Positions 1 to 34,742 of a DNA stretch of 64,000 bases are shown here, one piece after another. The first letter of the stretch is position 1. Every line of letters starts with the position of its first letter. The position numbers and the translations under genes are program-made. The notes under the pieces are model-generated. The model saw only the letters and a list, made by a program, of their open reading frames with translations, searched no databases and was not told the DNA's origin. Source of the stretch: Symbiodinium sp. CCMP2592 (Eukaryota; Sar; Dinophyceae; Suessiales; Symbiodiniaceae); contig CAJNDT010000138.1 of the NCBI GenBank assembly GCA_905221615.1, positions 62,001 through 126,000 on the forward strand, written 5' to 3'.

Positions 1-67
1 GGCTCAGGATGAGTTCTGGTCCCATAGTTGGAAGGCAATGGCATGGCTGCTGGGATCGGAAGCTGAC

Positions 68-723: not shown

Positions 724-922
724 GGAATTCCTCACATCCGAGGCTGAAGTACATCGACATGCTCTATCTGCACAATGGGCTGCCAGCTCTCGTGACGGGA
801 ATGCTCAGTGCCATTCTTGGTGGAGCACTCTTCTGGGCTGGAGTTTTCCCAGCATGGGAGGATGGGACCGACTTTTCGTGCAAGCAGCTGGGCTGCAGTT
901 CAGAAGTGCCTTGTTTCATATT
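724..922 (+). CDS. Exon 1 of recognised part (N-terminal membrane segments)
   Basis: The exon follows an AG|G acceptor at 721-723 and stops before a GTAAAG donor at 923. It encodes a segment with KYIDMLYLHNGLPALV, a strong hydrophobic helix, then VFPAWEDG and a short Cys-rich loop ending PCFI. It leaves two bases that combine with the first base of the next exon to give Leu. The ORF can be extended a few codons 5' but only to a TTG, so translation does not start here. Confidence 0.6.
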
Positions 923-3900
923 GTAAAGCTATGAGGACCCCTGCTGTGTCTGAAACATACGGAAGACCCTATAAGCCCTAGAAGCCTCAGCCTACCAGGT
1001 GGTGTACCCTGCACCTGGGCTTGACAGACAGTTTTGCTTTCCTGCCCGTTCTTCCTACGTACCCAGAGACTCGATATCCCTTAATTAAGGAATTTACCCT
1101 AAATTGCTAAATCATAGTAGAGATCCTACTATGATGATGGGCATATTCCTTAATTAAGGGATATTCGAGTCTCCGGGAGGGGGTTTCGTTCAAAAAGCGC
1201 TACCCCGAGACCTGGGGGCTGTAGAGGGACTCGAAGTGAGAAGGGCCATGTCTAAGGGTTGGGGGTTAGGTTTTTTGGGGTTTTAGGGTTTATAGGGTGA
1301 CACACCGATGTAGCCAGATATTTGAGGTAGTCACGTAGAGAACCCATGTTTAGGGTAAATCGGGGGTACATAGGAAGACAGCAGAGGGTATATTGCTTGT
1401 TTGAAAGGAGGAGCCTCCTCCGATGTATGTGCTTGCTATAGGCTCGGCTTGAAGGAAAGGAGATGCAGGAGAGAGAGGGATGATCTCTAGGGCTTTCAAG
1501 TCAGGTCCTGGTAAGCAGTGTTTCGGATCAGGGTCTCTGTCAGAAGGACCCCAATTTGAGCAAGATGCTTGCATGACGAGTGACTGATTACACCAACGGT
1601 TTCCTTGCAACGTAAGGATTTCTCAACATTGGGTGCTCATGAAAGTGATGTGACGTTGCTTCGGAGTAGAACGGGACCTGTAGGGAAGTCCTAGTGTCCC
1701 TGTACAATCGTTCTTCTGTTCCTACCTAAAGGCCACCCTGTTTGAGAATTTCTCAACTCCCCAAGAATTGTCTAGGTGTGGAGTTGGTGCCCACTACCTG
1801 ACACTGGTGATGTGGCAGCGGCGGCAGGTTGATATGCACGAAAAGCGAGTATGGGTAGTGGGTAATTAGCCCGGGAACCCCTAGCCCTAAAGCCCTAACC
1901 CTAAGATTTTTTCAGCATACCCCAAGGTTGCATTCCTCGACGTTGTGTGCATCAACCAGCTTGACATGAAGTTGAAAATGGAAGGCATCCTAAGCATTGG
2001 TGCGATTCTGAAACACTCCAGATCGATGGTGGTGCTATGGGATGCAACCAGAAGTGATTTAGTACCGATTCGTGTGTCTGCTCGTTTTTTTTTTGAGTGC
2101 TTGCTTGTGTTCTAAGATGAAATTGACACAAATCAAGACTTTTCAATTGACCTTAAACTGGGCCGAAAGCCAGGAGACCTATGACCATGACCGGTGGGGC
2201 CACTGATGAGGTTGAGCCGCCTCCCAGACGGGTGTCCTTTGATGCAGGGGGTGGCAATGCCACCCAGATCGACAGTGATGGGTTTCAGACTGTTCGCCGC
2301 CGGGGGCGCCAGAAGCCAGATCCGCCAGAGCCGGGTCCTACCAAAGGCGGCGGAAAGGCCAACAGCTATGCGGCTGTGGTGAGCGGGGCGGGCGCTTCTC
2401 CTGGCAAAGGGAAGGGCAAAGGCGCTCCACAGACACCCAAAGGACAGGGAAAGTCTGCGAAGACTTCCACGGTTGCGCCCGCTCGCCCTCAGCTTCGTGA
2501 CCGTGACTGGAATGGCGCAATCTTTTCCTACGACAAGGCAGCTTCACAGCTGAACAGTTTGAACGGCTCCGTGTTAGTTCAAGTGCGGGATGCGGAACAG
2601 GCCGATGCATTGATGATGATGCTTACAGGTGCGGGTGCCAAGTGCTCAGCCAGATTGGTCTGGGCAGACTCCGAGGGCAAGCTCAAGCTCCCCATTGTTG
2701 GGGAGGGCAAGGACGGCAACGATGTTCGCATTCATCATTTTGCTTATATCGATTTCCTTACGCCCGGCACGCCATTGCCCACGTTGAAGCATGCGCCTGC
2801 TGCTGCCAAGGCCGTTCCCACAGGCGAAGCCACGACTACCATGCGCATCGTCTTCGGCAAGCCTTTCTTGGAAACCGCAGATTGGGACAGGGCCTCTTCG
2901 GCTCCGAAGGCTGCCGTCCAGAGATGGGTGCGGGGCACTTTGAAGAGTGATCTGCATGGGGTTGTCAAGGACGCTTGGGGCTTCGCCCAGGAGACTCGCT
3001 TGGGCTCCCCGGCTGTGGTGGGCTTGGTTCGTGTTCCGGTCAAGACGGTGGAGACGCTCCTCAGCTTCTCGGGCGTCAATGGCACCTTCTTGGAGCCTGC
3101 TGGGCGAGACCACAACGTTGACTGCGCCGTTCAGTGGTTCGATACTGAGGCGAAAGAGTCCTGGCCGGAGGCTCTCAAGCGATCGCTTGAGGCCGCTCCT
3201 CGCTTTGGCGCCTTCATTGGCAAGCGCCAGATCGGCTTGCGCACTGAGGCAAGTGCGAGCTCTGGCAAAGGCTTTGTGCGCTACTTTTCGCTGCAAGGCA
3301 CACCTGTTGAGTGGAGCGATGGCTTGGTCTCCATGCTTGTCCAGGAGCAGGAGGGCATTGAAGAGGCGGCAGTCATCAGAAAGACATTGAGGAAAGGACG
3401 GGCTCACTGGCTCATCAAAGCCAAAGTGGCCCACACTGATGCCGATGCTTTTTCAGATTTTCGTGAAGGAAGGCGAGGGCGAGACTAGCTACTGGATGCT
3501 CGCTTCGAGACCTGGGTTTACGAGGGCTACCAAACCCATTATCGACCGGAAGCCCTTCATCTTCAGCAAGGCGCCGCTTGTACAGCAGGGCAACAAGCCG
3601 GAGTCAAAGCAGGGCGAGGGTGGCTCTGAGGAGCCCCCCAACAAGAAGCAGGCTCTTTCGGAGAAGTTGCGCAGCATCCCCGATGGTGTCAAGTTGCAGG
3701 CCGTTGACGGAGACGGCAATTGCTTTTATGCTGTCATCGGTCAGGCCCTGGGGAGGCTCCGCAACGAGCCCGCCTTGCCTGCCAACCGTGTCCGTGCTGA
3801 GATTTATGCGCATATGCGCAAACACCAGTCGTCGTATGAGCCATTTTGGAGTGGGCAGGATTCTGTAGGCAAGGAAATGGACAGCTTTGCCGAGTACATT

Positions 3901-6900
3901 GATCACATGTCTGAGAACGGACGATGGGCAGGCAGCCTTGAAGCCTACGGGGCCTCCAAGGCTTACAAAGTTGCGGTTCATATCATCCCAGCGCCGATGC
4001 GGCTTGCTAAGGCTGCATACAACACCAGCGCTCGTGATCGCATCGCTCTTTGGTTTACTGAGAACCCAGGGCATTTCGATTGGTTGTGCCCCGTTGAAGG
4101 CAATACCTTGCCTGACGCGCTGTGCATGGGCCACGCTGAGGGCCACGTCACCGACTTTCCTCGTGGCGGCGGTTCCCAGGGTGCTGGTGGCGACGACTTC
4201 TCCGAGAAGACGGTCTTCACCGAGGTGGTCGTGGCAAAGCAGGAGGCGGCGGAGTCCACTGTCTTTACGCACGTTCCGACGAGGAGGGCGCAGTGTTCGG
4301 GCGAGGCGCGTGCTTCTGGCAGTGGCGAAGTGAGCAGGGAAGCTTCGGAAGCTACGTGCTTCACCGCGAGGCCGAAAGACATCCGCAGCTACCTGTTTGC
4401 AGCGAGGAAGGCGGGCACTGAGGCTTTGACAGGGCAGCGGACGACGGCTACCTCTTCCCTGGGCTCCACCACCGAGGAGCAAGCTGCCGTAGAGGAGGTG
4501 CCTGAGCCTCCGGAGCCTGTGGCGCCGCAAGGGCGCAAGCGGTGTGTGAAGTCTGCGCGCTCCGGCTGGAAGTGCCCGGAGTGTGGTTGGAAGGCTACGG
4601 GCAGGCTTTGGGTGCAGCGAAAGCAAGCCCACGTGGACAACTACCACCCTGACCTCAAGGCGGAACTCAACCTGAAGACGGCGGCGCTGTGTGTGGTCCC
4701 TTACAACCAAGCAACCTGCTGTTGGAAGTGTCCAGTCGATGGATGCGACATGGGCTTGCCGGCTACAGAAGCTTCCAAGGACGCGAGGAGGCTGGCCCGA
4801 CTGCGACACAGAGAGGAGACTCACCCGGAGGCCCCTAAAGCCCTTTTCCGCCTGGCACGAGACAGGGCCGCAAACGCTCGGAAGGCTACGACTGCCAAGC
4901 TCAGTGCAGGGGTTGCTCGGCGTCTTCACCAAGTTCGCGCTGGCAAGGCTGGAGAGCACGACGTCGTGTTCGTGAAGCTGCCGCCGACGAGGGGGACCAA
5001 GAAGGGCAAGACGAGGAGGGCTGTGACGCAAGTCGTGTGCACGCGGTGCAAACGCCTGGCTTCTACGGTGGTTGCGCTTGGTGGTTTTTCGTGCAAGGCG
5101 CACACTGCTGGTGCGAAGCGCCCCGCTCTTCTCAAGCGGCTGCGAACGACGCTGGAGGAGGGCTCACTCGACGAGGGCGTGCAGTCCGACGTCCGCTACC
5201 TTTTGAAGTTGCTGGAGGAGACGGACGAGGGCCCTGTTGCAAAGCACGCGCTGTGCGCTGTGGCATGGCCGTTGGTGGGAGGTCGCTTCGAGGTCCGCTT
5301 TGTCTGCAAGACGTGTGGCGGCTCTTGGACCGGCAGCGCGACGTGGAGGGCAAGGACTGCAAGCCGAGCAAGCGGCGAGCCATCCGGGCCAAGGTTGCGG
5401 AGCTCAAGGGCATCCAGAAGGACGGGGGCATTGCGGGCGATGCGGCAACGACGGTCTTGAAGTTGATCGGCGAGAACGGAGGGGGCACGGCGGAGGACCA
5501 AGCTGCTGTCGACGAGCTGGCGAGGGGATTGGGGCAACATGCCTGAGTCTCCCAAGCTGCGTGTGGGTACTTGCAACGTGCGCTCTTTGACGGGCAAAAT
5601 GGGGGCAGTGATGGATATGGCGGCTAACGCGGCAGTCAATGTCCTTTGCCTTCAAGAGACCAAGCTCACGACGGAGGGTCTCCACGCAATGAGGCAAGCT
5701 TTTCACGCGAAGGGCTGGCGTCTTCTACCTGGCCCTCTCGCCTACGACTCCGAGGGCAAGGCCTGTGGTGGTGTGGCTATCGTTTCCGACTGGCCGGTGG
5801 AGATGGTGACGGTCCCTGTGGCGGAGAGCTTCAACACTCGCGTTATGGCGGTAAAGGCCCACCGCCCCAACCAGCGGCCACTCCTCGTCATCTGCGGCTA
5901 CCTGCCTGCCAATGACGACGAGCTCAACCAGCACATCGCCTCAACGGTGCTACAATGGGCGAGCACTACCGGCGAAGACTTTGTGTTCATGGCGGACTGG
6001 AACCGAACTCCTAACCAGCAGCCTTTCTGCAACCTTTTGGCGGGCGGCCTTGTCTACGCCATGGACAACGACCCGTTCTTCGAGACCCAGGGCACTCACA
6101 GACGCGCGGACGGCACGTACACGGGCAGGCTTTTGGACTTCGGGCTCTCCTCTGCGGGCTTGGCGGTGGACGGCCGAGCTCAACTCCTCGGCCCTGCAGA
6201 CCACGACCTCGTGACCTACGACGTTGGACTACAGAGTGGCAGACGTGGCTGGCGTTGGCAACCGCAACGAGCTTTGGACGCGAACGCGACGGTGGACTGG
6301 GACAGCTGTTGGGCCCCTCACGACGAGCGCTTCTGGGCTTTCCTTGGCAACGCAGACACGGACTCAGCCTGGCGACTTCTCTCCTACGTGGCGGAGCAGG
6401 CGCTGGCGGCGGAGGGCAGCAGGCCGGCACGGCCACGGGGCGAGCCTGGCAGGCCGGTGAAGGCGGAGGCGCACCGCGGCAGGGTGCCCGACGTCCAGAC
6501 GCTTTGTGAACGGAAGCTGCGGCGCGCAGCTCGCAAGGCTCATGAGGCCATTCGGCAGCCGGGCAACCTGGCGCTCTACCGCAACCTGGTGAACTACGTT
6601 CGCCACGTGGTGGACGTCTACCCTGACTTTGCAGAGGCGTTGAACCTACACGGCGAGGCTCTGCTCCTCTACTTGCAGCAGGCGGCGGAGGCGGAAGCGC
6701 GGCGTGCCAACGAGGCACGTCTGGACAAGTGGCGTGAGGCAGTCAAGACGGACGTTCCCCGGCTTTCCCGCTGGATCAAGGCGTCTCAAGTGGAGGCTCC
6801 AAGCAACTTCGAAGACTTTGGCGTGGACCCGGAACCGCAGGCGAGGGCGGAGCACGCCACTGTGGAGTGGAAGAAACGCTGGCACCGCGACGCTCGACCC

Positions 6901-9900
6901 GACGGGCAAGCACTGCAGCAGCTGCTCAACGACCTGGACTTTCCGGAGGCTCGGCCGGCGCAGGCTCCTACTGTGAACGGTTCCGCGCTCTTGCGGCTGG
7001 CAAAGGCGGCGGCGCGCAAAGCAGCTGGCCTTGACGGCTGGACTGGGAGCCTCTGGAAGGCTTTGCCGAAGGCTTTCTTTGACCTCCTCGCGGTGGTGTG
7101 GAACGCAGTGCTTGATGGGGCCCCGCTGCCGGCCGCGTGGGTGCAGGTACGCGTGTGCCTCATTCCGAAGGATGATGGTGGCTTGCGCCCTCTGGCCATC
7201 GCTGCGCTAGCTTGGAGGCTGGGCGCGACTTGCCTGGTTCGGCAGCTCACCGGTTGGGTGCACGAAGTTTTTCCTGCGGAGCTGTTTGGTGGCATGCCGC
7301 ACAGAGGAATTGATGACGTTCATGCTGCTCTTTCCAACGCTCTCTTCCTGCAACGTGGTGGCGGGCCTCTTGCGGGCTGTAAGGCAGACGTCAAGAAGTG
7401 CTTTGACTCTGCGGACCCCAAGCTGGCAGTGCAGTGCATGCGACGTTTAGGGGCTCCTGAGAACGTGCTCACTGTCATCGAGCGCTTTTACCAGCTTCAC
7501 GAGCGCTGGCTCATGGTGGAGGGGGCCTGTGCCAGGCACCCTGTGGTGGAGGCTGCGGCTTTGCTGCAAGGATGCCCGTTTTCTCCTCTTTGCCTCAACA
7601 GTATGATGACAGTGTGGCTGGCGGCGGTGAAGAAAGCTGATACAGGCTGTACTTTGTCGGTTTTTCTTGACGACAGGGCCATCTGGGTGCGAAAGCGCCG
7701 TGGTGCGGCCAGAGCTGTGCGGGCGGCAATGGTGGCGGGAAGGGAAGCAGACCAGGCTTTAGGCTTCGAGCTGCATCCGGCTAAGTTGGAGAGCTTTGGC
7801 ACTTCACAGCCTGTGAGAGAAGATTTGTTGGCTGCAGCTGACGAGGTGGGCATTCCGCAGCAGACGTTTCGGCTTTTGGGTCTTCCTTACAACACCACGG
7901 CGGCCTCTCCGATCGCTGCTGGCACCGTTGGCAAGGTTCTTAAAGCGAGGTGCAAGCGCATCCAACTGTGCGGGCAATCCAGGAGTCTTCGTTGCGCGCT
8001 TCTTCGGCTTCTGGTAGTTCCTCTTTTCCGTTGGGCCGCGCCTTGGCTTCGACAGTACAAGAAGGACGTACAGGCATGGACTGGTGCCATCGAGCGAGCG
8101 GCCTGGGGCGGCAGCATACCCAGAGGCCGTTCGCCTGCTCTGGCTTGGGCAGCTGTGCTGGGGCTTGAGCTCTACCCGGCTTTCGTCAACGCGGAGACTG
8201 CAGTCCTACGTGAACACCGCAGACTACAGCTTGGGCGGCATCCGCGCGAGGCTCCTCAGACCAAGGCTGCTTTGAGGTACTTTGGCTGGACTCGTGACGA
8301 CGCAGGTGTTTGGCACACTCGCCATGGCTCCTTTCAGGCGGGCGACGTCGGTGCTCCTGCCCTGCGACGGCTCATGCGTCAGGACGGTGCGCGCAAGCTC
8401 TTCTTGCAAGACAACAAGGCCAAGCAGGCTGGTGGCTTTGACGGCGACTTTGACTTGAACTACCAAGTCAAAACGCGTGACGTGGCCCAAACCTACCCGC
8501 TGCGCGTCATGGTTGGTGCAGCTTCTGACGCGAGGAGCTTGACGCCTAAAGACGGGAACGTGCAGGACTTGGTTTGCACTTGTGGCTTTGCAGGCCCTAC
8601 CAGGACGCACTTGACCTTTGACTGTCCTCGAGCTACGTGGAGCTCTGCGCGGCGGACTTTGCTGGAGCGGCGGTTCTTGGCGGCGCTTCGCCCTCTACCT
8701 CCCCGGCGCCCGCTTGCGGACTACAGCGTGCAGGTCGGTGAGGTGGCAGAGTACTTGAGCGAGCTTGACAGCGACCTCTTCCACTACGTGGCAACTGACG
8801 GTGGTTGCCTCCTTGCGAGAAAGGCGGAGGGTTTTCAGCAGGCTTCCTGGGCCATCGCTTTTGCAGACAAATCCTTTGGAGGCCTTGTTGAAGGACCGGA
8901 CCAGACGGCGGCGGAAGGTGAGCGCGTTGCAGTTTTCATACTGGCTGAAGCGCTCCTTCTTCACGGACGGTGGCTGCGACTTCTCGTGGACAACCAAGCT
9001 GTCGCTGGCAGGTTGCTTGGCGGTGAGGCCGCGTGCGAAAATGGTGACCCTTGGAGGCCGTGGAAGCGTGTGGCAAAGGCGGTGCGTTGGCTGCAAGTGG
9101 CATGGGTTCCGGCTCACAACAAGCAGGCCTCTTGGACGCCTCCCTCAGGCTGGATTGATGCCGACGCTTGTCAAGCTCTTAATAGGCGGGCAGACGCTGC
9201 TGCTGGCTCGGCTCTGCAGCCTTGCAGTCAAGCAGTGGCTCACGCGGCTCGTGCCGCTGACGAGAGGTTTGAGTGGGCGCGGGATGCTGTGGCAGCTCAG
9301 CGAGCAGCTACGCAGGACTGGCATGATCGCTTCGTCAACATGATCAGGCAGCAGCGGCGTCAATCGGCGTGAAGCTGCTAAGGGTGGCGTTGGCGTCTAG
9401 CTGCTCTTTCGGGAGTCCAAGCTGATGTCGTTTTTCATCTACAACAACAACAGGAGACCTATATGCAAAGATTGTGGTGCATATTTGAGCTTAGTGCATT
9501 TTTGCATGCTCATCCGCTGGATGACCGGAGCAGGAACCTGGTGATTTGTCCGATTCTTGCAGGGCCGGCACTGATATCCTGTCATATAGGCTGGGTTGAG
9601 GGTTTAGGTTGTAGGTGCTTAGGGCTGAAGCTGTATGCTCTGGGTTTGAGATCCATGCTTCGTTGTCATGCTCCTCTGATTTTTCATGCTGTGGCCCTAG
9701 GAATAGCCTGTTATCTCTCTAGATTTCCAGTGTCGCCAGCAGCACCCTTGTTTTGAACAAATCCAAGAGGCTTCTCTGTCTTGATGATCCTGATCGTCAC
9801 TTTGCCAATTAACGATTTGTCGCTGGACCTCTCGATCGTCGTGGGTGCATTGGCCATGTTCACGATGCCCCTTTTGGTATACACCATGCGAGCGCATTTC

Positions 9901-11472
9901 CGCAGCATCGACATGGTGCAGCAACAAGCGAAGCAGTTTTCACTCCAGCACTGTACGAGCACATGCTGCCAGAAGGGACATCCTGAGAATAGCCTGTGTG
10001 ATCGCAGCATTATTCTGCGCTGCATCTCGGCATGGTTCGGCCCCATTGAGGATTTTGAGCACTACGTGCAAACGAAAGTGCAGGCAGCTCTGACCTACCA
10101 TCTCGGGAACAAGGTCCGGGCATATAGTCTTCAAAACCAGGCCTTCCTCTACCCAATGTATCAAGGGCTGCAGTATGCGGGCAGCAGCCAGCCCCAAAAA
10201 ACCCTAAGCCCAAACCCTGAACCCAACACACAGAGTCCTAAACCCCAAGACCCTAAACTTCAACTTCTGAGAATTGTCCAGGTGTACTCCTATATTCGTG
10301 TTGTGGGTGCCACGGCACCGTCATTTTGGATGTTCCTGGATTGGAGCTTAAGCAGAGATTCTTCGAGCGAACGCGTTGCTGGCGTCCTAGGGGGCCTGGC
10401 ATATTGGCTCGCCGTTCTCCCATGTATCCGGTACAGCTCGGGAGACTTTCATGATTTTGGGGTGTCTGTTTGGGGTTCCTCATAAGTGGAAGTACGGTAA
10501 ATGTGTCTCTGTGAAGCCTGTTTGGGCCTCGCCCCATGCAGCTTCAAATCATGCACCTAATTACAATTCCCAATGTTGAGTCCCAATAAACGCTGCCGGC
10601 TGGTATCCTCCTTAAAGACGATCTCACGTATGGGATCTTGGAAAAGCTTGGCCAGTAACCTTTCATATCCTGCGCGGTACATCCCTGGGATATCCGATAG
10701 AACTCCTGAAGAAGGTTTGGGTTTAGGGCATCAGGTTTATTGCTGCCAGAGGTATGGCCAAGCTTTTCCTGCGCTTGAGCTTTCACTTGCGAGGTCATTG
10801 TCGATTGCCGGGTGGAGGGTTACAGCGCATGTAGCTTTTTGCTGCGGATTGGTACATGACGGTTTGAGCTTCCACACGAGTCTGATAGGCTTTTAGGTCG
10901 GTTCGGTGAGTTAGTACCTGGGGGTTAGGATTCTTCCTCGAAGGGTCAGGTTGACAATTACCACTTCCTTTCGATACCTCCGCTGTGCAACCTAAAGGTC
11001 ACAAGCAGCAATCACTCTTCAGCCAGGGCGTGGGGTCTGTTGTTGAGGCGGCTGTCATGGAAGTTATGTCGCGATTTCTGCTGTCCTATTTAGTGCTTCT
11101 CAATATTATGCCTTCCTGTTGGTGTGGTTCCGGTTTGTTTCATTTGAGGAGAAATCCATTTTTTGCAAGGTATAATCTCTCAAAAGGGTGCTTATTAGTG
11201 GCCTGGGCATGAATCCCTCCTCACTATGCTCCCGATCCTTCAGGTGGTACCTGGAGTTCCTACTGTCGATGGGCATTCTGCTTCTCTTTGTCTTAATTGC
11301 TGCTGCTGCGCGGACGCTGAACGAGTACGTCATTGGTGAGCTCGCGAAGCCAAGCGTCGAATTAAAGGAGTCGATCTTCTTAGGGATTTGTGGACTCGTG
11401 GTTGTTCTTGTCTGGAGATATGTCCCTTCGTCGGCGCAGATCCGAGTGCACGACTCCGACACCTCCATCTGA
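724..11472 (+). CDS. TIR-like multi-pass membrane protein gene, 5'-partial, seven recognised exons (spliced)
   Basis: This is a gene model, not one continuous ORF. The exons are 724-922, 1776-1827, 1927-2043, 9454-9580, 9770-10113, 10282-10430 and 11244-11472, and all join in consistent phase. The product runs from an N-terminal hydrophobic segment (LVTGMLSAILGGALFWAGVF), through a second (PCFIL/CGVGAHYLTLVMW), to a conserved block with FLDVVCINQ, VVLWD|ETY and RLWCIFEL. Then come a long hydrophobic region, a Cys/His-containing stretch (CTSTCCQKGHP ... CDRSIILRCISAWFG) and further membrane segments, ending at a TGA. The block with D, C-I-x-Q and W-C-x-x-E-L in order resembles TIR-type folds, where the WCxxEL glutamate is catalytic in NAD-cleaving members; that link is inference. 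I recall many uncharacterised dinoflagellate proteins with this layout. The largest intron (2044-9453) contains a whole LINE. Exon 1 begins at an acceptor and no ATG precedes it, so upstream exons are missing. The join between exons 6 and 7 is the least certain. Confidence 0.72.
923..1775 (+). other. Intron 1 of the TIR-like gene
   Basis: This intron carries one hairpin element of family A (1062-1177) and a degenerate TTTAGGG tract near 1256-1300. ORFs seen here on the - strand are not supported. Confidence 0.5.
1062..1177. repeat. Hairpin element family A, copy 1 (intronic)
   Basis: The left arm CCCAGAGACTCGATATCCC... and the right arm ...GGATATTCGAGTCTCCGGG are near-perfect inverted repeats with CCTTAATTAAGG at each inner arm. 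The family recurs seven times in this window. Confidence 0.65.
1776..1827 (+). CDS. Exon 2 (short membrane-helix exon)
   Basis: This 52-base exon lies between the acceptor TCTAG|GTG and the donor CAG|GTTGAT. It reads C-G-V-G-A-H-Y-L-T-L-V-M-W-Q-R-R-Q and completes a hydrophobic helix begun by exon 1. The phase matches both neighbours. Confidence 0.55.
1927..2043 (+). CDS. Exon 3 (first half of TIR-like block)
   Basis: The exon starts after CCCAAG| (AG|G acceptor, with a T-rich stretch at 1905-1913) and ends at a non-canonical GC donor, GGGAT|GCAACC. It encodes exactly 39 codons in phase 0: VAFLDVVCINQ, then a charged helix, then SRSMVVLWD. An earlier possible acceptor at 1914-1915 would need a GA donor on exon 2 and was not preferred. 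Confidence 0.7.
2171..2182 (+). repeat. LINE TSD, 5' copy (contains original splice acceptor)
   Basis: CAGGAGACCTAT is identical to 9451-9462. The flanking bases differ on both sides (C/A before, G/A after), so the duplication is exactly 12 bp. Confidence 0.88.
2187..3488 (+). CDS. LINE ORF1, basic nucleic-acid-binding type protein
   Basis: The product is about 433 residues. The N-terminal ~110 residues are low-complexity and basic (KGGGKANSYAAVV, GKGKGKGAPQTPKGQGK), typical of disordered RNA-binding tails. The remainder is a folded-looking region without a motif I recognise. An upstream in-frame ATG at 2181 borrows its first two bases from the target-site duplication, so 2187 is taken as the element's own start. 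The last codons (TDADAFSDF) overlap the start of ORF2 in another frame at 3439-3488. Reading continues sensibly if the frame shifts there, so ORF1 and ORF2 may originally have been one polypeptide. By position it is probably the RNP/chaperone-like ORF1 of a LINE; no further function is claimed. Confidence 0.7.
   Translation: MTGGATDEVEPPPRRVSFDAGGGNATQIDSDGFQTVRRRGRQKPDPPEPGPTKGGGKANSYAAVVSGAGASPGKGKGKGAPQTPKGQGKSAKTSTVAPARPQLRDRDWNGAIFSYDKAASQLNSLNGSVLVQVRDAEQADALMMMLTGAGAKCSARLVWADSEGKLKLPIVGEGKDGNDVRIHHFAYIDFLTPGTPLPTLKHAPAAAKAVPTGEATTTMRIVFGKPFLETADWDRASSAPKAAVQRWVRGTLKSDLHGVVKDAWGFAQETRLGSPAVVGLVRVPVKTVETLLSFSGVNGTFLEPAGRDHNVDCAVQWFDTEAKESWPEALKRSLEAAPRFGAFIGKRQIGLRTEASASSGKGFVRYFSLQGTPVEWSDGLVSMLVQEQEGIEEAAVIRKTLRKGRAHWLIKAKVAHTDADAFSDFREGRRGRD
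3439..5460 (+). CDS. LINE ORF2, OTU-type cysteine protease with zinc fingers
   Basis: This is a 673-codon ORF. Residues ~80-215 look like an OTU deubiquitinase-type domain: the nucleophile motif DGDGNCFY has Cys95, and the C-terminal histidine motif NPGHFDWL has His212. Further on are C2H2-like fingers, WKCPECGW...QAHVDNYH (near residues 375-400) and WKCPVDGCD...RHREETH (near 430-470), then CTRCKR and CKTCGG pairs. These suggest nucleic-acid binding plus protease or deubiquitinase activity encoded by a retrotransposon. From about 5320 the frame loses protein character (Arg/Ser/Ala-rich), while frame 3 reads DCKPSKRRAIRAKVAEL and stays open to TGA 5544-5546. The true C-terminus therefore probably lies in that frame, overlapping the ORF3 ATG at 5539. 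Confidence 0.72.
   Translation: MPMLFQIFVKEGEGETSYWMLASRPGFTRATKPIIDRKPFIFSKAPLVQQGNKPESKQGEGGSEEPPNKKQALSEKLRSIPDGVKLQAVDGDGNCFYAVIGQALGRLRNEPALPANRVRAEIYAHMRKHQSSYEPFWSGQDSVGKEMDSFAEYIDHMSENGRWAGSLEAYGASKAYKVAVHIIPAPMRLAKAAYNTSARDRIALWFTENPGHFDWLCPVEGNTLPDALCMGHAEGHVTDFPRGGGSQGAGGDDFSEKTVFTEVVVAKQEAAESTVFTHVPTRRAQCSGEARASGSGEVSREASEATCFTARPKDIRSYLFAARKAGTEALTGQRTTATSSLGSTTEEQAAVEEVPEPPEPVAPQGRKRCVKSARSGWKCPECGWKATGRLWVQRKQAHVDNYHPDLKAELNLKTAALCVVPYNQATCCWKCPVDGCDMGLPATEASKDARRLARLRHREETHPEAPKALFRLARDRAANARKATTAKLSAGVARRLHQVRAGKAGEHDVVFVKLPPTRGTKKGKTRRAVTQVVCTRCKRLASTVVALGGFSCKAHTAGAKRPALLKRLRTTLEEGSLDEGVQSDVRYLLKLLEETDEGPVAKHALCAVAWPLVGGRFEVRFVCKTCGGSWTGSATWRARTASRASGEPSGPRLRSSRASRRTGALRAMRQRRS
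5539..9372 (+). CDS. LINE ORF3: APE-like endonuclease, reverse transcriptase, RNase H
   Basis: This intact 1277-codon ORF is the replication polyprotein. Residues 1-240 form an exonuclease-endonuclease-phosphatase domain, with GTCNVRSL, LQETKL (catalytic Glu ~41), ADWN (~151) and ADHDLVTYD near its end. The reverse transcriptase spans about 490-790, with LIPKDDGGLRPLAI, KADVKKCFDSAD, LQGCPFSPL and the catalytic box VFLDDRAIW (Asp-Asp ~709-710, Leu replacing the usual Ala of FADD). A Cys/His cluster (CTCGF...HLTFDCP) follows near 1012-1035. RNase H lies at about 1080-1270, with ATDGG, AAEGERVAV, VDNQAVAG and VPAHNKQ. Domain order fits APE-type LINEs carrying RNase H. The ATG at 5539 overlaps the preceding frame's stop (ATGCCTGA). 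Family-level placement needs a phylogeny. Confidence 0.9.
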   Translation: MPESPKLRVGTCNVRSLTGKMGAVMDMAANAAVNVLCLQETKLTTEGLHAMRQAFHAKGWRLLPGPLAYDSEGKACGGVAIVSDWPVEMVTVPVAESFNTRVMAVKAHRPNQRPLLVICGYLPANDDELNQHIASTVLQWASTTGEDFVFMADWNRTPNQQPFCNLLAGGLVYAMDNDPFFETQGTHRRADGTYTGRLLDFGLSSAGLAVDGRAQLLGPADHDLVTYDVGLQSGRRGWRWQPQRALDANATVDWDSCWAPHDERFWAFLGNADTDSAWRLLSYVAEQALAAEGSRPARPRGEPGRPVKAEAHRGRVPDVQTLCERKLRRAARKAHEAIRQPGNLALYRNLVNYVRHVVDVYPDFAEALNLHGEALLLYLQQAAEAEARRANEARLDKWREAVKTDVPRLSRWIKASQVEAPSNFEDFGVDPEPQARAEHATVEWKKRWHRDARPDGQALQQLLNDLDFPEARPAQAPTVNGSALLRLAKAAARKAAGLDGWTGSLWKALPKAFFDLLAVVWNAVLDGAPLPAAWVQVRVCLIPKDDGGLRPLAIAALAWRLGATCLVRQLTGWVHEVFPAELFGGMPHRGIDDVHAALSNALFLQRGGGPLAGCKADVKKCFDSADPKLAVQCMRRLGAPENVLTVIERFYQLHERWLMVEGACARHPVVEAAALLQGCPFSPLCLNSMMTVWLAAVKKADTGCTLSVFLDDRAIWVRKRRGAARAVRAAMVAGREADQALGFELHPAKLESFGTSQPVREDLLAAADEVGIPQQTFRLLGLPYNTTAASPIAAGTVGKVLKARCKRIQLCGQSRSLRCALLRLLVVPLFRWAAPWLRQYKKDVQAWTGAIERAAWGGSIPRGRSPALAWAAVLGLELYPAFVNAETAVLREHRRLQLGRHPREAPQTKAALRYFGWTRDDAGVWHTRHGSFQAGDVGAPALRRLMRQDGARKLFLQDNKAKQAGGFDGDFDLNYQVKTRDVAQTYPLRVMVGAASDARSLTPKDGNVQDLVCTCGFAGPTRTHLTFDCPRATWSSARRTLLERRFLAALRPLPPRRPLADYSVQVGEVAEYLSELDSDLFHYVATDGGCLLARKAEGFQQASWAIAFADKSFGGLVEGPDQTAAEGERVAVFILAEALLLHGRWLRLLVDNQAVAGRLLGGEAACENGDPWRPWKRVAKAVRWLQVAWVPAHNKQASWTPPSGWIDADACQALNRRADAAAGSALQPCSQAVAHAARAADERFEWARDAVAAQRAATQDWHDRFVNMIRQQRRQSA
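9451..9462 (+). repeat. LINE TSD, 3' copy (new functional splice acceptor)
   Basis: This second copy of CAGGAGACCTAT directly follows the ACA tail. Its CAG is in frame and in phase to serve as the acceptor for exon 4 of the host gene. Confidence 0.85.
9454..9580 (+). CDS. Exon 4 (second half of TIR-like block)
   Basis: The exon opens after the duplicated acceptor CAG| at 9451-9453 with E-T-Y-M-Q-R-L-W-C-I-F-E-L, which continues exon 3's LWD in phase 0. It ends at the GT donor 9581 with one base left over. Its first nine bases are part of the 12-bp LINE TSD and also occur at 2174-2182. Confidence 0.72.
9770..10113 (+). CDS. Exon 5 (membrane segments and Cys-rich loop)
   Basis: The exon begins after CAAGAG| (AG|G) and ends before a GT donor at 10114. 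It encodes a hydrophobic helix (SVLMILIVTLPI), a second (IVVGALAMFTMPLLVY), a basic loop, a Cys cluster (CTSTCCQKGHP) and CDRSIILRCISAWFG, ending LGNK. In the family as I recall it, this region follows the TIR-like block, which supports the exon order. Confidence 0.68.
10282..10430 (+). CDS. Exon 6 (membrane segment)
   Basis: The acceptor is TCCAG|GTG and the donor is ATCCG|GTACAG. The exon encodes VYSYIRVVGATAPSFWMFLD and GLAYWLAVLPCI with two bases left over. The preceding 168-bp intron is a multiple of three and has no in-frame stop, so a single ORF reads through it. The intron is full of degenerate CCCTAAA-type DNA. Confidence 0.6.
11244..11472 (+). CDS. Exon 7, C-terminal exon with stop
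   Basis: The acceptor is CCTTCAG|GTGG. The exon reads W-Y-L-E-F-L-L-S-M-G then a long hydrophobic helix (ILLLFVLIAAAA), a loop (TLNEYVIGELAKPSVELKE) and a second helix (IFLGICGLVVVLVW), and ends at TGA 11470-11472. Its phase fits direct joining to exon 6. A short extra exon inside 10431-11243, for example near 10752-10793, also fits by phase and cannot be excluded. Confidence 0.58.
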
Positions 11473-12443: not shown

Positions 12444-13248
12444 AAAACCCTTAGCCCTTTATAGGAACCCTTATAGATCCCTGTAAGGAGTCCTTATGGA
12501 TCCTTTTAAACTTAGGGGTACTTAGAAATAATTTTTAATTCTTGGTTATTATAATCCCTAAGAAACAGCTAAACATATATTTTTTGCTAGGGTTCTAAGT
12601 TCAGTATAGTAAAGGTACCCCTAATTGTCGGAACATCCCAAGTAGGCCCGCGAGCAGTAGGATGATGACCAGTCACACGTGTCGGTAGGTGCGGGGCCAG
12701 TATCTTCATAAGACGCCAGCAGCCGACGTATTATAGTATATTATGGCGTATCACAGCATGTAGTAGTATGGTATAGTAGATCACAGAATATGATAGTGAT
12801 TTGTGGTGTATTGTCGTATCTTAACGTTCACTCGACCACATTCGCAACGGCCTCCTCCAATGTTTTATCCTTCCGCGGCCTTGTGCAGCTTAGCTTTGAA
12901 GCAGAAGCAAGCAGATTGCTTTGTGAAGGCAACGCTTTGCTGTAGCTCTGGTCTCAAAGCAGATTTTTCGTTGTTGCTTGCAATGTAAATCTGGAAAACT
13001 CATGGGTGATACCATGACCATGCGAAGTTGTTTGGGGTTCGTCGCTTTGTTGCTCAGGCAAGCCCACTTGTTTGGACACAGCACGCACGGTTTGTGAGTA
13101 ATGTTGCATGCAAATTTTCACACCCAGGCAGCCCAGTACCATTCAAACACGGCACATGCTGGCTATGCAGGGACCTTGTGTACGATGCTCTCCGGTTTGT
13201 TTTCCTTGTTAAACCTATAGACACTGCTGCTACAAGTAACACTCCTGC
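12444..13248. other. AT-rich and low-complexity intergenic DNA
   Basis: The stretch holds a CCCTTATAGATCCCTGTAAGG-type filler (about 12455-12510), a family E fragment, and a degenerate TATAGTA/ATCACAG tract at 12725-12830. Two short ORFs at 12803-12988 and 13028-13258 have no recognisable domain. Confidence 0.4.
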
Positions 13249-13378
13249 ACAACCCTAAACCCTAAACCCCTAAGCCCTAAACCCTAAACCCCTAAACCCC
13301 TAAACCCCCAAACCCTACACCCTAAACACCTAAACCCTAAGCCCCTAAACCTTAGAACCTAAACTCTAAACCCTAAAT
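13249..13378 (-). repeat. Telomere-like CCCTAAA array (interstitial)
   Basis: Roughly seventeen CCCTAAA units, with one-base variants such as CCCCTAAA and CCCTAAG, run tandemly. The G-rich strand TTTAGGG is on the minus strand. Confidence 0.75.
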
Positions 13379-13920
13379 TGTTACTTGCCGCACCGGCCAT
13401 GGTGCGAAATGCTTGCCAAGAGCTTCCCCCGCTCCCCAAGGCGATGTCTTGCTTGTTCAATCAAGATTCCAAGGTGCAGTTTGAGGATATTTGGCTGTCT
13501 ATAACTTCTTGGGCCCAGGGTTGGGGATTTAGTTCCTTGTTGGTGTAGGATCCGTCGGTGCTGATGGGCTCGTTTCGGGTTTCGGAGAGCCTTTCACGTT
13601 CGAAAAAGGTTGGTGTAGGGTTTCAGAGAGGACATGCGTGCAGGGATTGTACCTAGAAATCTTGTCGGTGGGATGCCTGGGTTGCCTGGGTTGTTGCAGA
13701 TTCAGAGTTGACATGGCATGGCAGGCTTCATTCCACATGTTGCAAATCTTCAACCCCAAATCCTAAATCTCAAATGTAGCACTGGGTTATATAGCCGCCT
13801 TGGCCTCATTCTGTCGTGCTGAACCTCGAAGACCAGGAGGAATTCGAGCTTTGGATTGTGTTCATTCAGATTGTATCCGTGAGCTGCAGGTGTGAAGCCG
13901 TCAAGCCAATCGCTTCAGCA
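13379..13920. other. Intergenic, no gene supported
   Basis: No ORF or motif with protein character was seen. Confidence 0.35.
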
Positions 13921-34340: not shown

Positions 34341-34640
34341 CATACCATTTTTCGGTGGTTCCTTATTATATTTTTAGTATAATTTGCCCCAAAACCCTGT
34401 TCTAATTATCAAAGTATCCTTCTAGATGCCGTATAGGAACCCTTTTAAGGATCCCGAGAAAGGAACCCTATTCTAATTATTCAAGGCCCCTTTTTTACCT
34501 GATAGAGCTTCCGGGCTTGGGTGTCGGGGTTCGGGCCTTTTGCCTTTTACAGGTCTGCTGGGATCGCTGCTGGTTGCTGCTTCTGTTTATGTGGTTTGGT
34601 TTGTTGTAGTACAGCCTAGTGTACAAGCTTAGGACAGCAC

Positions 34641-34742
34641 ACCCTAAACCCTAAACCCTAAACCCTAAACCCTAAACCCTAAACCCTAAACCCTAAACCC
34701 CTAAACCCTAAACCCTAAACCCTAAACCCTAAACCCTAACCC
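34641..34742 (-). repeat. Telomere-like CCCTAAA array, nearly perfect
   Basis: About fourteen CCCTAAA units, one of them CCCCTAAA. This is one of the most regular arrays in the window. Confidence 0.8.

Follow-up and report, generated by a model that had tools for sequence, protein, structure and literature searches.

Site-specific long interspersed nuclear elements (LINEs) are held to persist because the RNA genes or repeats in which they insert are multicopy and expendable. The LINE described here interrupts, instead, a protein-coding gene with a TIR-like domain in the dinoflagellate Symbiodinium sp. CCMP2592 (assembly of 1.098 Gb in 5,383 contigs, denoted by C-numbers); the window, i.e., the whole 64-kb stretch analysed, is C138:62,001-126,000. 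We consider it highly probable (roughly 0.88) that this 5'-truncated element belongs to a site-specific LINE clade, which targets the motif TAY-N12-TGGTGY in an exon of a TIR-like gene family. In the accessible part of PMC4640811, the targets given for target-specific LINEs are ribosomal RNA (rRNA), spliced-leader, tRNA, transposon, microsatellite and telomeric sequences, with U2 small nuclear RNA (snRNA) genes also reported, and the R1 and Tx1 clades are named as the target-specific ones with an AP (apurinic/apyrimidinic)-type endonuclease. Similarly to R1, Tx1 and Keno, the window LINE combines an AP-type endonuclease and a reverse transcriptase (RT) with insertion at a precise point of a multicopy target, tandem insertions and 5' truncation, a likeness of endonuclease type and insertion habit. 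For these elements, the same part of PMC4640811 names targets among RNA genes, transposons, and simple or telomeric repeats, whereas the target of the window LINE is a protein-coding exon. R2 and Utopia also use one site in a multicopy gene, but they have a restriction-like endonuclease and target 28S rRNA and U2 snRNA genes (excerpts of PMC5035012 and PMC4640811); Utopia and Keno share a site across lineages, as do the families described below. In the excerpts of the openly licensed PMC literature that were searched, no earlier report of LINEs targeting a protein-coding family was found.

The LINE occupies 2183..9450 of the window (forward strand, as all features given here) and ends in a CAACAACAA tail, as delimited by the sequence, the Pfam domains and the comparison of copies. 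An ORF1-like open reading frame (2181..3488), the first bases of which lie inside the flanking target-site duplication, is followed by an open frame with an OTU cysteine protease domain (3439..5460; PF02338, 36.4 bits) and by the 1277-aa ORF2 (5539..9372), which encodes the AP-type endonuclease (PF03372, 40.8 bits) and the RT (PF00078, 61.5 bits). Both ORF2 domains were found in all five members of alignment A1, and the closest PDB sequence is human L1 ORF2p (51.9 bits). With RT and endonuclease and without long terminal repeats (LTRs), the element is a non-LTR retrotransposon. ORF2 is open, while ORF1 is divided between frames, through which the predicted models P0016 and P0017 read (P-numbers designate predicted gene models or annotated proteins). 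The initial annotation took the element for full-length; the copies on C5022, C4915, C447 and C159, however, extend about 630-640 nt further 5' and all start at the same sequence, hence the window copy is 5'-truncated. Copies of the window LINE are 96-100% alike, unlike the LINEs of these genomes that the accessible text of PMC8045281 describes as highly divergent. A scan of IMG/VR with the ORF2 alignment returned three distant loci (L001, L002, L003) with 29-41% identity, confined to short endonuclease-like stretches, and the scan with the host query returned no match.

The OTU domain of the first coding region of the LINE is also listed for P0008, P0009 and P0016-P0020. The annotated Symbiodinium sp. 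CCMP2592 proteins P0001, P0016 (named mrkA) and P0017 are host TIR-like segments fused to LINE frames, therefore the LINE is counted there as host coding sequence. P0018, a model from a different (ENA) source, carries a TIR-like segment ending in LVLWDLTYT, followed by a LINE ORF1 that is 46% identical to that of the window, which speaks for the targeting from outside this assembly.

The last 300 bp of the LINE, searched against the whole genome, gave nine matches, eight at 96-100% and one partial match at 89%. Seven of the eight strong copies lie at one codon position (Y-x-x-R-L-W-C) in five TIR-like paralogs, with one copy each on C138, C2713 and C4915 and two each on C5022 and C447. The start points of the LINE vary (positions 1, 4851, 5281 and 6666, plus the four copies with the longer 5' end), and the duplications outside the window, 11-16 bp long, differ between genes, which identifies the copies as separate insertions; a multicopy target was thus hit independently at one and the same nucleotide position. 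On C5022, two LINEs stand head to tail with target sequence between them and the two host halves outside, the duplication of the second copy merging with the tail of the preceding LINE. On C447, where the host halves are 78 kb apart, two copies of the window family are found together with one LINE of a second family. The latter carries a further insertion of about 65 kb; together, the three LINEs and this insertion split one TIR-like gene (C447:94,800-173,000; L024-L027, L030-L035).

The fact that the copies are 96-100% alike in their last 300 bp and are located in paralogs could also be accounted for by one insertion spread by host gene duplication or gene conversion. The truncation points and duplications differ, however, the hosts are diverged and unlike LINE families occupy the same site, which makes such a spread extremely improbable; spread from one filled gene was rejected by the differing duplications and truncation points. 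The sequences flanking the other copies led to the rejection of a random LINE insertion beside an acceptor.

The second family, the ORF2 of which shares 42-46% identity with the window ORF2 over long segments, was traced through its 3' end, which gave three matches (C447, C433 and C247), all three at the same motif. On C433 and C247, the copies are flanked by 15-bp duplications (TGCAGACCTACGGTT and TCACGAGTTACTCCA, respectively) and the sites encode TYGSRGWCRLEL and SYSTRFWCRLEV; judged by eye, these hosts belong to a second gene family that also has Y-x-x-R-x-W-C-x-x-E. A third family is defined by the 54-nt, (ATAC)n-tailed end common to inserts on C234 and C4667. The pattern of this end has six exact matches in the genome, while the reversed control has none, and TGGTGC or TGGTGT stands just beyond the tail in all six. 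The copies on C824, C234 and C4667 lie in clear TIR-like genes and those on C200, C256 and C1385 in sequence with stops; in C824, C1385 and C4667 the frame upstream of the tail resembles, by eye, the end of the window ORF2.

The DNA motif common to the three LINE families is roughly TAY-N12-TGGTGY (TAT-N12-TGGTGC at 9460..9480 in the window), with TGGTGY as well as TAY present in 12 of the 14 sites. TGGTGY lies 20-23 nt past the tail in ten of the 14 (the spacing on C447 counted as 22, after removal of three tail bases), and in C256 and C234 tail and site overlap. The background frequency of TGGTGY in the 18-24 nt range is 453 of 106,920 positions; since these very sites also supplied the motif, the contrast is a descriptive one. 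At sites free of tail overlap, the 3' junction is 5-8 nt before the TAY codon. The duplications of the full-length copies and of one truncated copy (C447) extend 4-5 nt beyond TAY, and those of two truncated copies (C138 and the first C5022 copy) end at TAY.

Several observations weigh against a clade devoted to this motif in this gene family. Two sites are devoid of TGGTGY (C4915 has TGGACG and C159 AGGTGC) and two of TAY (C1385 has CAC; in C234 the tail overlaps). The sites on C200, C256 and C1385 have the motif but no open host frame, and as host genes had led to two of the six third-family copies, only four are free of this bias. For one C447 copy the 5' junction alone lies at the site, the 3' end abutting another LINE without target. 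The copy on C2713 is without a clear duplication, the host running from LIWD through the LINE to STYAGRLWC. At the eighth copy, on C159, a 16-bp duplication and a motif-like site are seen without any recognisable host gene; a decayed host gene was rejected there, as tblastn of six host queries on the joined flanks gave nothing better than E 0.2. The counts, moreover, cover the three LINE families described here.

We propose that insertion in this clade takes place about 7 nt upstream of a TAY codon, 12 nt beyond which stands TGGTGY; in a large family of TIR-like genes this stretch encodes Y-x-x-R-L-W-C. The AP-type endonuclease most likely nicks the bottom strand at the motif, whereupon target-primed reverse transcription would yield the duplications of 11-16 bp. 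We infer that the endonuclease itself reads the motif.

Empty sites are abundant in the host family. Among the 150 host matches (scored and matched of 358 candidates for the host query), 137 run unbroken across the insertion point, including a 91% identical tandem neighbour on C447; the target is therefore a multicopy one with empty sites. This count does not give the filled fraction, because LINE-filled genes match only in halves and rank lower. The 13 broken matches comprise the two halves of the window gene, one downstream exon piece, and ten that were inspected individually. Two of the ten (C234 and C4667) carry the (ATAC)n-tailed inserts, and six stop at an AGG that fits the start of an AG^GC or AG^GT intron (C752, C5193, C447:874,394, C5062, C857 and C25), the downstream exon being visible in the first three only. 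The host match on C1902 breaks at the insertion point. C752, C5193 and C447:874,394 (L045, L046 and L047) have an intron at R^LWC, the LINE target being three codons away. On C1787 (L048), a gag-like retroelement stretch (KGKGKGKG), recognised by eye, directly follows LWDTT.

The window gene differs from the other filled genes in its exon-intron structure. P0015 has matches for its successive exons in the 10 kb upstream of the window and in the window itself, beginning at C138:57,831 and reaching VVLWD. Its tblastn matches in the window are the host exon pieces DEFWSHSWKAMAWL (8..49; 93% over 14 aa), LKYIDMLYLHNG...FSCK (744..884; 91% over 47 aa) and CGVGAHYLTLVMWQRRQ (1777..1827, with a GT donor at 1828), and the exon VAFLD...VVLWD (1927..2043), which is also matched by P0018 and supported by its frame. 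The exon start ETYMQRLWCIFELSAF...PILAGPAL (9454..9573) downstream of the LINE is placed by its frame and by the TIR match across the junction, and a further coding stretch, MILIVTLPIND...HLGNKV (9784..10116), matches P0013 and P0014, which show 94% and 69% identity, respectively, over 45% of the joined host query. P0015 reads VVLWDETYM uninterrupted and then diverges, thus its support covers the junction but not what follows in the exon; being itself a prediction, it may rest on a splice model. Introner-type introns can be flanked by direct repeats. The intron preceding the LINE-bearing one (1828-1926) is bordered by a 6-bp direct repeat, AGGTTG (donor CAG^GTTG, acceptor AAG^GTTG). Short CCCTAAA-like (telomere-type) repeat arrays are dispersed across the window, e.g., at 13,235-13,390 and 34,640-34,740.

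The sequence CAGGAGACCTAT occurs exactly twice in the 64 kb, at 2171..2182 and 9451..9462, against a shuffling expectation of 0.01. As the initial annotation held, this 12-bp target-site duplication flanks the LINE and spans a host 3' splice site: the first copy covers the near acceptor (AG at 2172-2173) of a 130-bp intron (2044..2173), across which P0015 joins VVLWD to ETYM, along with nine exon bases, and the second copy carries the far acceptor (AG at 9452-9453). The GC donor (GAT^GC at 2043/2044), the intronic CAG (CAG^GAG at 2173/2174 and 9453/9454) and the frame restored by the 2043-9454 join were all recovered as described there; the joined frame reads VVLWD-ETYMQRLWCIFELSAF and closes across the TIR-like domain. 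As delimited by the exact repeat and the tail comparison, the far acceptor may be part LINE tail and part host, since the (CAA)n tail can equally supply the CA of the far CAG. In the assumed order of events, GAGACCTATATG would have come next to the 130-bp intron before the insertion. The sole genome match of the 139-bp stretch 2044-2182 is the stretch itself, therefore no empty allele exists in this assembly.

The joined exons score 19.5 bits against PF01582 (cut-off 21.3) and 19.9 bits against PF13676 (cut-off 28), and the host is called TIR-like because these scores stay under the Pfam TIR cut-offs. In the Pfam search the TIR match is absent from either exon alone and from the near-acceptor product, and both scores drop if the joined form lacks the E or has A in its place. 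A weak HET match (12-13 bits) is also present with the upstream exon.

Splicing from 2044 to the far acceptor could, judging from the sequence, remove the whole LINE in the cell and keep the gene working by an introner-like event, a reading that we regard as tentative and place appreciably below even odds. It is favoured by the duplicated acceptor, by the joined frame that restores the TIR-like domain, by TTTTTCATCTAC preceding the far acceptor, with a pyrimidine share of 0.54 compared to 0.49 at the near acceptor, and by the fact that GC donors are common in Symbiodinium (the available text of PMC5177918 gives the donor classes GC/GT/GA); the near acceptor, however, has the identical 12 bases 7.3 kb closer, no new intron was created, and the other LINE copies show no such arrangement. 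Alternatively, and with odds only a little short of even, the window gene is broken, its transcripts using the near acceptor or ending in the LINE and the duplicated acceptor being silent. The near acceptor is intact and leads to an early stop, the product reading VVLWDETYDHDRWGH-stop, and broken members are common in the TIR-like family, given that the insertion plainly interrupts the exon in C5022, C447 and C4915. On the other hand, all the examined host exons of the window gene are open, though a recent insertion would leave them open.

The overlap of the window target with CAG^G might suggest that the LINE targets splice acceptors or intron ends. The targets in C5022, C447 and C4915 are, however, inside continuous coding sequence, and the paralogs with a nearby intron and both exons visible have it a few codons off, at R^LWC, hence acceptor targeting is very improbable and was rejected by the mid-exon targets. 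The insertion position follows the DNA motif of the gene family, not splice sites. Returning to the motif-directed insertion proposed above, the acceptor was duplicated in the window paralog because the 3' end of the intron there coincides with the target, and the copied splice site seems to be incidental to the targeting. Among the five host genes with this LINE family, the acceptor is duplicated only in C138; in C5022, C447, C4915 and C2713 the insertion breaks into coding sequence at a point that has no intron.

The proposal of a LINE turned into an intron, as introners are, was thus not supported, in contrast to the acceptor-copying duplication and the frame that closes only via the far acceptor, both of which stood. 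The intron already ended at the insertion point and was lengthened, only its 3' end having moved, and no new intron was made; nor do the other copies show a splice site by which many similar copies could be spliced as introns. According to the part of PMC9860276 available, introners of Symbiodinium microadriaticum have 4-bp duplications and the target-site duplication supplies the splice site. The splice site supplied by a duplication is a likeness within the same genus, but here the duplication is one of 12 bp, made by a LINE, and it shifted the acceptor of a pre-existing intron.

It is conceivable, albeit unlikely, that the 130-bp intron is itself the relic of an earlier, shorter insertion, and that serial LINE hits make and enlarge introns at one codon. 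The intron lies exactly at the target, its flanking codons are repeat-like (x-T on both sides, with GCAACC before and GAGACC after), an intron is absent there from C5131, the best-scoring of the other paralogs, and insertions are repeated on C5022 and C447. Conversely, the repeat agrees at four of six bases and the intron is unlike the four LINE 3' ends: in local alignments, 64, 213, 264 and 299 of 300 shuffles reached the score, no better than shuffles, so that a recognisable LINE tail was rejected.

Transposons spliced out of exons, with RNA proof, include maize Ds/Spm and Drosophila 412 in vermilion. The window LINE is likewise inserted in or beside an exon and might be removed from the RNA.

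If a LINE clade does target this codon motif, a new class of LINE target would be at hand, namely an exon in a large family of receptor-like proteins, and such a clade would be a steady source of broken family members. It would also offer endonucleases that may recognise a protein-coding motif. Since the LINEs insert at one fixed point and their host genes differ in exon-intron structure, the family provides a natural experiment on the conditions under which splicing can remove an inserted LINE.

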